From positions 1,054,001-1,118,000 of the forward strand of contig NZ_CP047189.1 in NCBI RefSeq assembly GCF_030440575.1: a stretch of DNA of 64,000 nt, written 5' to 3'. The notes under the pieces were generated by a model that made no database searches, was not told the DNA's origin, and saw nothing but the letters and a program-made list of their open reading frames with translations. Below, one piece after another: positions 5,629-63,234 of the stretch; the first letter of the stretch is position 1, and every line of letters starts with the position of its first letter. The DNA is from Corynebacterium ciconiae DSM 44920 (GTDB lineage Bacteria > Actinomycetota > Actinomycetes > Mycobacteriales > Mycobacteriaceae). A program made the position numbers and the translations under genes.

Positions 5629-7074
5629 ATGTCTACAGCTCTTCAAGAGCACGATACTCAGACCGCAGTTGCCGGTCGAGTAGTTCGTGTCATTGGGCCG
5701 GTTGTCGACGTGGAATTCCCCCGCGGCGCTCTTCCGGCACTCTTCAACGCCATGACTGTCGAGGTCTCCCTCGAAGCAGTGGCAAAGACCATCACCCTCG
5801 AGGTCGCTCAGCACCTGGGCGATAACCTCGTGCGCGCCATCTCCATGGCACCCACCGACGGCCTGGTCCGCGGTGCAGAGGTGACCGACACCGGCAAGCC
5901 GATTTCGGTGCCCGTGGGCGACGTCGTCAAGGGCCACGTGTTCAACGCCCTCGGTGACTGCCTCGACGAGCCGGGTCTCGGCCGCGATGGTGAGCAGTGG
6001 GGTATCCACCGCGAGCCTCCGGCATTCGACCAGCTCGAGGGTAAGACCGAGATCCTCGAAACCGGCATCAAGGTGATCGACCTGCTGACCCCTTACGTCA
6101 AGGGCGGCAAGATTGGTCTCTTCGGTGGTGCAGGTGTGGGCAAGACCGTGCTCATCCAGGAGATGATCACCCGTATCGCCCGCGAATTCTCCGGTACCTC
6201 CGTGTTCGCCGGTGTGGGCGAGCGTACCCGTGAGGGTACGGACCTCCACCTCGAGATGGAGGAGATGGGCGTGCTGCAAGACACCGCGCTTGTCTTCGGC
6301 CAGATGGATGAGCCGCCAGGAGTCCGTATGCGCGTGGCTCTGTCCGGTCTGACCATGGCGGAGTACTTCCGCGATGTGCAGCACCAGGACGTGCTGCTGT
6401 TCATCGACAACATCTTCCGTTTCACCCAGGCTGGCTCCGAGGTGTCCACCCTGCTGGGTCGTATGCCTTCTGCCGTGGGTTACCAGCCCACCCTGGCTGA
6501 CGAGATGGGTGTGCTCCAGGAGCGCATTACCTCCACCAAGGGCAAGTCGATTACCTCGCTGCAGGCCGTGTACGTGCCTGCCGATGACTACACCGACCCC
6601 GCTCCCGCCACCACCTTCGCCCACCTCGACGCCACCACCGAGCTTGACCGTGGTATCGCGTCGAAGGGTATTTACCCCGCAGTGAACCCGCTGACCTCTA
6701 CCTCTCGTATCCTCGAGCCCGGTATCGTCGGCGAGCGTCACTACGCAGTGGCCCAGCGCGTGATCGGTATCTTGCAGAAGAACAAGGAGCTGCAGGACAT
6801 CATCGCCATCCTGGGTATGGACGAGCTCGGTGAGGAAGACAAGATCACGGTGCAGCGTGCCCGTCGCATCGAGCGCTTCCTGGGCCAGAACTTCTTCGTT
6901 GCTGAGAAGTTCACCGGTCTTCCCGGCTCCTACGTGCCGTTGGAGGACACCATCGACGCCTTCGAGCGCATCTGCAACGGTGAGTTCGACCACTACCCGG
7001 AGCAGGCCTTCAACGGTCTCGGCGGTTTGGACGACGTCGAAGCTGCCTACAAGAAGATCCAAGCGGAAGGTTAA
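5629..7074 (+). CDS. atpD: F1Fo ATP synthase subunit beta
   Basis: Catalytic F1 subunit, 481 residues. The P-loop GGAGVGKTV is near residues 165-173, the catalytic GERTREG follows, and the DELSEED-type loop appears as DELGEEDK. It starts three bases after atpG. One motif A core (ACTACGCA, 6740-6747) lies in the conserved HYAVAQRV stretch and is probably fortuitous codon use. Confidence 0.98.
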
Positions 7075-7084
7075 GGGCTAAGCT

Positions 7085-7453
7085 ATGGCTGACATCGCCG
7101 CAGAACTGGTCTCCGTGGAACGCGTACTGTGGTCCGGCCGGGCCACGATCGTCACCGCGCAGACCATCGAAGGTGAAATCGGCGTGTTGCCAGGGCACGA
7201 GCCTATGCTTGCTCAGCTCGTCGAAAACGGCGTGGTGACTCTGACCACCACAGACGGCCAGAAGAAGGTCGCCGCATGCCAGGGCGGCTTCTTCTCCGTC
7301 ACCCCGGACAAGGTCACTGTTCTTGCTGACTACGCAACGTGGGCCGACGAGGTGGATTCTTCCGCCGCTGAGTCCGCGCTCGCCACCGGCGACGCTGTGG
7401 AGAAGGCTCGGGCAGAAGCCGAGCTGAAGGCGGTTCGTCGCCGCGAAGGCTAA
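7085..7453 (+). CDS. atpC: F1Fo ATP synthase subunit epsilon
   Basis: Small central-stalk subunit that couples and self-inhibits the rotor. 122 residues with the beta-sandwich signature [16 protein letters not shown] near residue 30 and a short C-terminal helix ([20 protein letters not shown]). ATG 7085 follows atpD by 10 bases. It closes the operon; a strong hairpin begins 34 bases after the stop. The segment ADYATWAD is encoded by ACTACGCA (7329-7336). Confidence 0.95.
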
Positions 7454-7487
7454 AGCCCCTCAGGCTTGACACGCTAGTTACAACTCA

Positions 7488-7521
7488 GGCGCCATCCCTA
7501 CTTTTTAGGGGTGGCGCCTTG
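7488..7521 (+). terminator. atp operon terminator
   Basis: GGCGCCATCCCTA (7488-7500) pairs along its full length with TAGGGGTGGCGCC (7506-7518), with one G:T pair, around a CTTTT loop. The T-run after it is short. It is the obvious end of the atp transcript. Confidence 0.8.
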
Positions 7522-7690
7522 GTGTATCGATGGCAGTGAGTGTTCTTGCCAGACATCAGAGGAGAAGGCGGGGAGATGGCGTCGAAAAGCGCAGCTCAGC
7601 GCGATAATGAAGAATATGGATCTTGATAGATGTAGACTGAGAATAATTTTCCAAGTCTCTTAAGGAGCATATCCGCGGCGGGAGAGTGGC

Positions 7691-8158
7691 ATGGAAGTGC
7701 GAATTATCGCCAGTCTGATTATCGCGGCAGCCGGAGTGGCTGCGGTTCTCGTTCTGTGGCGGTTTCTCACGCTGCGCTCCCAAGGCACACCTGTGATTGT
7801 GCGGCGCCTTCCCGCCGAGGGCGTACACGGGTGGCGGCACGGAATGCTGCGCTACCGCGGCATGGTGCTGTACTACTACAAGGTGCGCTCCATTTTGCCT
7901 TTCCCGAATTTGGTGTTTAGCCGAGCCGATACCCACGTGGTTTCGCGGCGGCGGATTACCGCGGGGGAGGCTTCTTTTATGGAGCCGAACCTCTCCGTTC
8001 TCCAGCTGGATATTGCTGGCCAAGGCTACGAGGTGGCGCTTGATGCCCGCGGGGAGATGGCGTTGACCGCGTGGATCGAGGCGGCGCCTTCACGGCAGCG
8101 GATCCGCTCGAATCCGCGGGTGGCCCGCTGGTATTTTCGTGAAAGTCAAGGCCGCTAA
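7691..8158 (+). CDS. DUF2550 family membrane-anchored protein
   Basis: A 155-residue protein with one N-terminal membrane segment (residues 4-24, IIASLIIAAAGVAAVLVLWR), then a basic cytoplasmic domain rich in Arg and Tyr (GMLRYRGMVLYYYKVRS). This architecture and its place just after atpC match the DUF2550 family of Corynebacteriales, whose function is unknown to me. ATG 7691 is preceded by GGGAGAG. The 237 bases before it hold the atp terminator and a weak motif B variant. Confidence 0.85.
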   Translation: MEVRIIASLIIAAAGVAAVLVLWRFLTLRSQGTPVIVRRLPAEGVHGWRHGMLRYRGMVLYYYKVRSILPFPNLVFSRADTHVVSRRRITAGEASFMEPNLSVLQLDIAGQGYEVALDARGEMALTAWIEAAPSRQRIRSNPRVARWYFRESQGR

Positions 8159-8187
8159 GAGCACACGGGAGTAGCCGGAGACTCTGT

Positions 8188-8193
8188 TAATGT
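8188..8193 (+). promoter_or_regulatory. -10 box of nucS, leaderless type
   Basis: TAATGT ends seven bases before ATG 8201 and no ribosome site intervenes, as expected for a transcript that begins at the start codon. Confidence 0.45.
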
Positions 8194-8200
8194 AGTCAGA

Positions 8201-62135: not shown

Positions 62136-62139
62136 TAGC
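62124..62139. repeat. Motif A copy overlapping the ilvC stop
   Basis: GCTACTGCGTAGTAGC, near-palindromic (GCTACT/AGTAGC). The TAG stop is 62133-62135. An opposed copy is at 62191-62205. Confidence 0.9.
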
Positions 62140-62151
62140 AATTCGCTATTG

Positions 62152-62179
62152 ACACGCCCCACCATTCGGTGGGGCGTGT
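62152..62179 (+). terminator. ilvBNC terminator
   Basis: ACACGCCCCACC (62152-62163) and GGTGGGGCGTGT (62168-62179) are perfect 12-bp reverse complements with an ATTC loop. The T-run after it is poor. Confidence 0.75.
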
Positions 62180-62203
62180 GTGCGTTTGGGGGACTACGCA
62201 TCA

Positions 62204-62233
62204 GATTTTCAATACTGGAAATTAATGAAAATC
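62204..62233 (+). promoter_or_regulatory. Perfect 8-bp inverted repeat before the CDF transporter gene
   Basis: GATTTTCA (62204-62211) and TGAAAATC (62226-62233) flank 14 A/T-rich bases, five bases before the -10. Likely operator for a metal-responsive regulator. It begins inside a motif A copy. Confidence 0.5.
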
Positions 62234-62238
62234 GCGGC

Positions 62239-62244
62239 TAGGCT
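62239..62244 (+). promoter_or_regulatory. -10 box of the CDF gene, leaderless type
   Basis: TAGGCT ends six bases before ATG 62251. Confidence 0.5.
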
Positions 62245-62250
62245 ATAGGC

Positions 62251-63234
62251 ATGAGCAACCCACCAAGCCGCCACCACGAGTCCGACAGCCACGGCCACTA
62301 CGGCCACATGCATGGCCATGGTGCCGGCCACTCTCACGCTCATACGAACGTGCCCACAGATTCGCTGCGAGCGCTGCTCATTGTTATTGCACTCACCGCC
62401 ACGGTGTTCTGTGCTGAGCTGTTGGTGGGGCTTATTTCGGGATCTCTGGCGTTGCTCTCCGATGCGGCGCATATGCTCTCAGATTCGGCCGGGTTGTTTA
62501 TCGCCCTTATCGCGATGGTGGTGGGCCGCAACGCTCACTCCGATGGGGCGACCTTCGGCTACAAACGCATGGAGGTCTTTGCCGCCCTCGTCAACGCCTT
62601 AGCTGTGAGCCTGATCGCGGTCTACATCCTCGTCCAAGCGGTGAGGCGTGTTGGTCACCAGCACACGGTGGACACCGGCATGATGCTCATCGTCGCCGTG
62701 ATCGGGTTGATCGTTAATTCCGTTGCGGCGATGGTGCTCGTGCGACGCCAACACGACAGCATGAACCTGCGTGGCGCCTATCTGCACGTGCTCACTGATC
62801 TTCTAGGTTCCATCGCGGTGATCGTGGCGGGACTGGTTATTCGCTACACCGGGTTCGTCGCGGCCGACACTATCGCCAGCGTGCTCATTGCTGCCTTGAT
62901 CCTGCCGCGTTCGCTGCGGTTGGTTCTCGATGCCTGCCACGTGCTGCTGGAACATGCACCCGAGGGCGTCACGGTGGAGCACGTGCAGCGGCGGCTGCAA
63001 GAGATCGCCGGGGTTGAGCACGTGCACGACATTCACATCTGGAGCTTGGATGGCACGACGCATCTATGTTCCTGCCACCTTGTGGTGGGCGGTCATTGGG
63101 ATGCCGAACGCCACTGCGTAGTACTCGATAAGGCCACGGCGACATTGGCCGATATGGGGCTTGGGCATGCCACCATCCAGATCGAGCCCGCAGCTCACGC
63201 CGAGCACGAGGATGTCGAATGTCAGAGCGCCTAA
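62251..63234 (+). CDS. CDF family zinc/cation exporter (ZitB/CzcD type)
   Basis: 327 residues. The N-terminus is His-rich (HESDSHGHYGHMHGHGAGHS, about residues 9-28), typical of zinc exporters. Six membrane segments with transport-site residues in LLSDAAHMLSDSAGL and AYLHVLTDLLGSIAV (the HxxxD pair), and a C-terminal cytoplasmic metal-binding domain (VEHVHDIHIWSLDGTTHLC). A motif A-like copy (63111-63125) is encoded near the C-terminus. Confidence 0.92.
   Translation: MSNPPSRHHESDSHGHYGHMHGHGAGHSHAHTNVPTDSLRALLIVIALTATVFCAELLVGLISGSLALLSDAAHMLSDSAGLFIALIAMVVGRNAHSDGATFGYKRMEVFAALVNALAVSLIAVYILVQAVRRVGHQHTVDTGMMLIVAVIGLIVNSVAAMVLVRRQHDSMNLRGAYLHVLTDLLGSIAVIVAGLVIRYTGFVAADTIASVLIAALILPRSLRLVLDACHVLLEHAPEGVTVEHVQRRLQEIAGVEHVHDIHIWSLDGTTHLCSCHLVVGGHWDAERHCVVLDKATATLADMGLGHATIQIEPAAHAEHEDVECQSA

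Follow-up and report, generated by a model that had tools for sequence, protein, structure and literature searches.

The complete chromosome of Corynebacterium ciconiae DSM 44920 (2,584,365 bases) carries five paralogous HNH-endonuclease genes, and three of them, here called A, B and C, each sit in a field of short motifs. The motifs differ by paralog (A, TGCGTAGT; B, TCGCTGTCT; C, CAGTAGTG), each has one dense cluster, and its density falls with distance. We tentatively propose, with a probability of roughly 40%, that each of these three proteins, which belong or are close to the DUF222/13E12 family, owns its field of a private 7–8 bp core as the footprint of a selfish nuclease. The stretch of 64 kb that was analyzed (the window, chromosome positions 1054001–1118000) holds the central part of field A, and 464 kb around it were examined with a weight matrix. 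Ranges written with two dots are window positions.

The core TGCGTAGT, or ACTACGCA on the opposite strand, occurs 67 times exactly in the window (31 plus, 36 minus), from 6740 to the last copy at 63115–63122. In 100 dinucleotide-preserving shuffles the mean was 1.20 copies and the maximum 4, and an order-3 Markov model predicts 2.42; the first-pass annotation of this DNA had read about 66 copies against some two expected. Most cores are embedded in AACTCTGNTGCGTAGTAGC, the consensus of the weight matrix, in which the 8-bp core is almost invariant and the flanks are weaker; information is small outside about −8 to +10 (~19 bp). The base preceding the core was said to be A, C or T, and these three do dominate (C 25, A 22 and T 12 of 67), but G is also present (8). 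As had also been noted, copies lie in both orientations, within genes and between them. They are neither tandem nor do they share sequence past the unit, and the spacing of field A sites has no fixed period and is Poisson-like (coefficient of variation 0.97, 70 gaps), which bears out the earlier view that motif A is not an insertion sequence or an array of clustered regularly interspaced short palindromic repeats (CRISPR), and sets it apart from tandem repeats as well.

Above a matrix score of 11 bits there are 147 sites in the 464 kb, 70 of them in the window (6740..63122, both strands), and they form a single peak. Field A comprises ~110 sites over ~180 kb (~1.014–1.19 Mb) and reaches 31 sites per 20 kb at 1.094–1.114 Mb; below 1.014 Mb and above 1.194 Mb there are 0–3 sites per 20 kb, except for two bins of 6 (914–934 kb and 1.214–1.234 Mb). 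The extent first given for the repeat, 6740..63125, thus does contain it, but is merely the center of a larger domain. By Pfam, this domain is ordinary core chromosome (ATP synthase, glgB, glgE, etf, ligA, gatA/gatB, pfk, ilvD and an ilvB-like gene). Genome-wide we counted 191 exact cores against 118 copies of the reversed control word; positions are at hand for all 91 plus copies of motif A and, among the matches listed, for 9 of its 100 minus copies, and for all copies of motifs B and C. The enrichment is one local peak: 135 of the 191 cores fall inside the examined 464 kb, and the other 56, spread over 2.12 Mb (0.026 per kb), are at the background of 0.019–0.038 per kb given by shuffles and Markov models.

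This distribution overturns the likeness to DNA uptake sequences or HIP1 that was suggested at first. A genome-wide repeat of that kind would account for the short asymmetric core, the weaker flanks and the two orientations, but motif A is at background outside its peak and abundant in two of 242 Corynebacterium genomes only; we give this explanation almost no credence. The word TGCGTAGTAGC occurs 61 times here, 53 times in Corynebacterium sp. 74A (G124), and at most five times in each of the other 240 genomes. Likewise, the 15-base CTGNTGCGTAGTAGC, sought in 201 Corynebacterium genomes, gave 49 copies here, 30 in sp. 74A and one each in three others. In contigs of 84,980 species, a scan that possibly lacked the source genome itself, ACTCTGNTGCGTAGTAGC was found in 16 stretches, 12 from sp. 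74A and four with single matches in unrelated metagenome-assembled genomes; in viral contigs, seven stretches each had one motif match. Corynebacterium sp. 74A is the sister species, with LigA 91% identical (the next species reaches at most 72% among the matches listed), and its motif A peak is at the corresponding position, where an 18.5-kb contig holds 27 sites.

At the center of field A lies a gene for an HNH endonuclease of 475 residues (44371..45798, plus strand, chromosome 1,098,371–1,099,798; Pfam HNH PF01844, 4.7e-07). Kernel estimates place the peak at 1.099 Mb (10-kb bandwidth), 1.102 Mb (5 kb) or 1.094 Mb (20 kb), the gene being at 1.0984–1.0998 Mb. Outward from the gene, motif A density runs 1.9, 1.5, 0.85, 0.72, 0.40, 0.32, 0.18, 0.08 and 0.14 per kb. 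The sister species has an orthologue (83% identity) at the same place, directly between gatB and an M20 peptidase gene; the neighboring transporter genes differ, an HlyD/ABC (ATP-binding cassette)/MacB-like operon (40846–44136) and a MalK-like ATPase gene (45856–46980) being missing there in the sister. Ten relatives whose syntenic 80 kb were inspected have no such gene at the corresponding position; two of them (G045 and G091) have a distant HNH match (31–35%) upstream of ligA. The gene is clade-specific and related to DUF222/13E12.

The same arrangement recurs at two other paralogs. Paralog B (1,735,441–1,736,868) has the motif TCGCTGTC(A/T), that is TCGCTGTCW, and paralog C (2,492,048–2,493,400) the motif CAGTAGTG. 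Around B, CGCTGTCT occurs 31 times in 80 kb (2.9–4.1 expected), and around C, CAGTAGTG occurs 26 times (1.8–2.8 expected), while four stretches without an HNH gene (60–100 kb each) showed no comparable enrichment. Genome-wide, 24 of 55 copies of TCGCTGTCW lie within 1726074–1740201 (~14 kb) and 26 of 76 copies of CAGTAGTG within 2483148–2494768 (11.6 kb). The sister species carries identical motifs B and C at both orthologous genes, and the cores are conserved: among those that could be aligned, B keeps 32 of 47 (random 38.1%) and C keeps 22 of 27 (random 45.0%). The body of gene C itself contains no motif C site here and three in the sister. The motifs of A and C share GTAGT. As a separate, post hoc observation, the motif C core occurs three times within 10 kb at the center of field A (chromosome 1094407, 1101572 and 1104396; window 40407, 47572 and 50396); with 50 copies lying elsewhere than in field C, ~0.2 would be expected.

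Field centers and widths were estimated with a Laplace-plus-background fit. The fitted center lies 2.6 kb from the middle of the gene here and 4.5 kb in the sister for A, 2.2 and 1.3 kb for B, and 2.5 and 2.4 kb for C; genes A and B overlap the 95% interval of the center in both species. The e-fold decay length, on the grid tried, is 25 kb for A and 2.5–4 kb for B and C. With centers 1.3–4.5 kb off the HNH genes, and gene C just outside its interval, it might be asked whether some nearby factor other than the HNH gene, such as a neighbor gene or a recombination or replication feature, makes the fields. We consider this unlikely, as no other gene was seen to be common to the three neighborhoods: that of A holds gatB, the M20 peptidase gene and transporters. 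The other two, judging by translations, we take to hold greA-, coaA- and glyA-like genes (B) and Mrp-antiporter-like genes (C).

We compared motif A with the sister genome at 107 of the 147 sites, those covered by alignment. All eight core bases are kept at 68 of 89 sites in the domain, against 27.5% for random 8-mers, and the flanks are 78% identical. Differences in the alignments are mainly base changes, less often the insertion or loss of a whole motif. Although 86% of the domain is coding, 36 of the 63 sites that score above 20 bits fall between genes (a core that partly overlaps a gene counts as half); of the weaker sites, 6 of 51 are wholly intergenic. These intergenic counts are slightly high because the gene caller missed the HNH gene and a LigT-like gene.

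A further explanation is codon or peptide bias, and copies within genes do encode peptides of the YYA, TTH or LRS type. For 20 genic sites (1.062–1.120 Mb) in genes with orthologues in at least 6 of 10 outgroup species, the residues under the core were identical to the outgroups in 51% of comparisons (308 of 603), against 63% elsewhere in the same genes (P 0.023 by random permutation of core positions within these genes). Against the sister, the residues under the core were 95.5% identical (64 of 67) versus 89.7% elsewhere (permutation P 0.040). Because outgroup proteins agree less with the motif codons than with other parts of these genes, gain of the motif appears to have altered the proteins rather than followed them; acquiring motif A probably came at a price to the proteins, and the motif was afterwards kept. 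Outgroups thus lack the encoded residues more often than expected, the stronger copies are mostly intergenic, and there is one peak, all of which makes a codon or peptide by-product scarcely credible. The first-pass annotation had named such codon usage as what would refute it; our results support motif A as a motif at the DNA level that codon use does not explain.

The Pfam HNH domain (PF01844) is present in all six members scanned, and the HNH catalytic residues H370, H371, N385 and H394 are invariant in the six aligned members. DUF222 is above the Pfam cut-off in four paralogs (B, C and those at 182 and 850/851 kb). Protein A is 33–44% identical to the four other paralogs, with C the closest (44–45%). 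The ratio of nonsynonymous to synonymous divergence (Ka/Ks) is 0.055–0.183 for four paralogs (two with Ks above 1) and Ks is saturated for A; the HNH genes appear to be under purifying selection. A search of 242 Corynebacterium genomes at E 1e-60 returned five HNH genes each here and in the sister, in apparent pairs, and one in G197; when 298 Mycobacteriales genomes were searched with a profile (E 1e-45), the only matches were the five of this genome and a single one in G164. PADLOC assigned none of the five paralogs to a family, no close plasmid or phage homologue was found that would suggest carriage on a mobile element, and simple patterns revealed no LexA-type boxes upstream of the five genes. 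A structure model had no match in the PDB at E 0.001, and in a PDB sequence search the nuclease matches covered the HNH part alone, at E 0.01 or worse. Judged by eye, residues 72–98 resemble a helix-turn-helix. Each of the HNH proteins A, B and C is a putative sequence-specific reader of its motif.

How might such fields arise? Because the motifs are near background outside their own fields, we infer that the sites act in cis. At the locus of its gene, the nuclease would act on intermediates of recombination or repair, favoring the motif-bearing strand or haplotype. Conversion tracts extending from the gene could then fix motif alleles with a probability that drops with distance, and the arrays would be built mostly by base changes. 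On this view a selfish, homing-like nuclease would protect or spread its neighborhood by biased conversion, and the field would be its footprint. We favor biased resolution of recombination intermediates because a plain cutter of its own sites would lose them to repair. Stated more broadly, and held more loosely still, DUF222-HNH proteins may be selfish sequence-reading nucleases that, by skewing recombination near their own gene, write a private and distance-dependent motif field into the host chromosome, a bacterial chromosomal analog of a gene drive that leaves a visible footprint and overrides amino acids of core enzymes.

Conversion at related loci has been reported: REP13E12 loci are among the most gene-converted in Mycobacterium tuberculosis, with 87 events, and are said to 'lack defined biological function' (PMC13061034). 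Another study treats REP13E12/HNH endonuclease/DUF222 as a repetitive category (PMC10589994), and a third reports chromosome cleavage by a mycobacterial HNH nuclease, though its main text contains neither of the words DUF222 and 13E12 (PMC9416677).

The main rival to biased conversion, possible and nearly as likely, is a nucleoprotein array in cis: the newly made HNH protein would bind those sites that lie closest to its gene, forming a local domain or trap, and the value of a site would drop with three-dimensional distance from the gene. Such an array could repress the gene, hold a dangerous nuclease off the rest of the chromosome or shape the locus, with no drive involved. It would account for the decay of density, the two orientations and the Poisson-like spacing, for the mostly intergenic position of the stronger sites and near-background counts elsewhere, and for conserved sites beside genes under purifying selection. 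On the other hand, more than 100 A sites with amino-acid changes in core enzymes seem a high price for titration, the field widths of 25 kb versus ~3 kb would require protein-specific reasons, and no regulator domain besides HNH and DUF222 is above the Pfam cut-off.

Several observations weigh against the selfish-nuclease reading. Its conversion bias requires a choice of strand or allele that is hypothetical, and conversion in M. tuberculosis, being among paralogous copies, may need no nuclease. Neither here nor in the sister do the paralogs at 182 kb and 851 kb show a field with 6-, 7-, 8-, 9- or 10-mers. No comparable field was found at 41 HNH loci of 11 other Corynebacterium species or at three HNH loci of Tsukamurella, and the field is therefore not a general property of the family. 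Gene C lies 0.2–0.3 kb outside the 95% interval of its field center in both species. DUF222 was not found in protein A or its sister orthologue even at E 5, and the structure model is poor (mean predicted local distance difference test score 59), if better in the helical first ~190 residues. Within the domain, 21 of 89 motif A cores are not kept in the sister alignment, and only 9 of 18 are kept outside it. The evidence for protein change comes from 20 sites, at P 0.023. The longer exact pattern CTGNTGCGTAGTAGC shows a strand bias here (34 plus, 15 minus; 14 and 16 in the sister) that the model does not predict. Finally, fields without an HNH gene are possible, because fields B and C were found by inspecting HNH loci and about one third of the genome was examined for fields.

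Orientation and position relative to the terminus bear on other explanations of field A. Matrix sites are oriented 25 plus and 33 minus to the left of the HNH gene and 28 plus and 25 minus to its right. Chi-like sites that protect from breaks and are directed to the center were rejected, as the orientation switch is absent at the gene. As for a replication-oriented motif, the matrix sites are unbiased on either side of the gene, and the longer exact pattern is biased here yet not in the sister. A first dif pattern had no match in the window; a further pattern gave 12 matches, of which the top one, with two mismatches and tied with one other, is a dif candidate at 1256417–1256438, ~157 kb from the peak. 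A terminus domain centered on dif is disfavored, as peak A is off this candidate. Motif A could still be a matS-like chromosome-domain signal near the terminus, read by another protein and coinciding with the HNH gene by chance. A single ~180-kb domain of core chromosome, not far from the likely dif and conserved in the sister, would suit this idea, but the peak is not centered on the candidate, two further paralogs have motif clusters of their own in both species, 240 other Corynebacterium genomes are at background, and ten relatives, searched over their syntenic 80 kb, have no comparable motif of other sequence at the locus. We regard a matS-like signal as improbable. As a side observation, motif A has a small secondary bump towards the dif candidate (6 sites in 1214001–1234000), and the sister contig C1 has 17 sites in its 80 kb at 1–80000.

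The survey of the family drew on 20 other Corynebacterium genomes, 18 of which gave 86 HNH matches at E 1e-15; the 41 loci examined came from 11 of them. In a 7-mer test, 46 HNH stretches (5 here plus the 41) were set against 57 controls, 17 of them stretches of this genome and 40 from ten other species. Fields A, B and C ranked top (log10 P −13 to −24), the best control reached −5.1, and three other HNH stretches had −5.2 to −6.3. An 8-mer test gave the same order for B and C (best control −5.6), with a few other loci slightly higher than that control. In the two tests together, those slightly above the best control were both G149 loci (the genus-wide motif), G006 L136 and G014 L151 (a GC-rich word), G045 L157 (CGGCAAAG), G091 L166 (ACTGGTA) and G180 L160, where CAAGGACG is mainly a repeat inside 1933808–1935110 and ACGGTAA has 9 copies. 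The three Tsukamurella records, L178, L179 and L180, are labelled plasmids and have HNH genes near tRNA-synthetase genes; they look like chromosome pieces, because they carry ileS, ftsZ and murC, argS, or leuS.

To our knowledge, no local motif field is known for the DUF222-HNH/13E12 family of Actinomycetota, and we know of no chromosomal gene that has a graded field of motifs around it, specific to that paralog; nor was a gene so ringed found in the open-licence literature, where the titles listed for TGCGTAGT were unrelated. With that family the present genes share the HNH domain in all five paralogs and DUF222 in four, multiple copies and a chromosomal location, and they differ in the fields seen here and at none of the 41 other Corynebacterium loci. 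Mycobacteriophage stoperators, the sites of cluster A repressors, are likewise many asymmetric sites across the DNA encoding their binding protein, with a motif that varies with the protein, but they belong to a phage genome and to a repressor rather than a nuclease, their orientation is tied to transcription, and they show no gradient around the gene. Homing endonucleases include HNH nucleases and show flanking co-conversion that declines with distance from the gene; their target is one site in the empty allele, whereas the gene-bearing chromosome here has dozens, and gene A is a free-standing open reading frame rather than one in an intron or intein host. DNA uptake sequences, HIP1, Chi and the FtsK-orienting polar sequences (KOPS) also have a short over-represented asymmetric core, but are genome-wide or oriented, and the fields here are local. 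MatP/matS of the E. coli Ter macrodomain similarly joins a local chromosomal domain and dispersed short sites to one reader protein, its 13-bp target occurring 23 times in 800 kb (PMC3330122); here there are gradients around nuclease genes, three motifs and a peak A off the dif candidate.

The REP13E12 loci of M. tuberculosis are gene-conversion hotspots described as being without defined function (PMC13061034). Candidate DNA targets for three DUF222/13E12-family members offer a concrete hypothesis for the family, with which a long-open question becomes testable by simple binding assays, and they may make it possible to recognize past biased transmission in the sequence itself, with no other data.

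Individual matrix sites illustrate the settings of motif A. Two lie immediately upstream of the HNH gene (44144..44163, minus; 44185..44204, plus) and one covers its 3′ end (45777..45796, minus). Strong sites covered by the sister alignment include 8900..8919 (minus, core conserved), 16849..16868 (minus), 20801..20820 (plus), 30391..30410 (plus, at the start of ligA), 37143..37162 (plus, within a major facilitator superfamily transporter gene) and 48490..48509 (plus, core 0.88 conserved); at 29347..29366 (plus) the core is not kept (0.5). Further strong matrix sites are 13407..13426 (minus), 26984..27003, 33199..33218 and 35283..35302 (all plus), and a plus-strand site in a 28-bp inverted repeat, AACTCTGCTGC-GTAGTA-GCAGCAGAGTT (13620..13647), where a hairpin is possible. 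Rfam cis-regulatory RNAs in the window are an atpB RNA (198–325) and an msiK RNA (46982–47038). A second short motif, GTCGATAAGC, is genus-wide: the window has 15 copies, an 80-kb stretch of the sister has 16, and 7 of 10 relatives have 7–16 per 80 kb; in the 464 kb, 30 of its 78 copies are intergenic, and it has no orientation bias towards dif.

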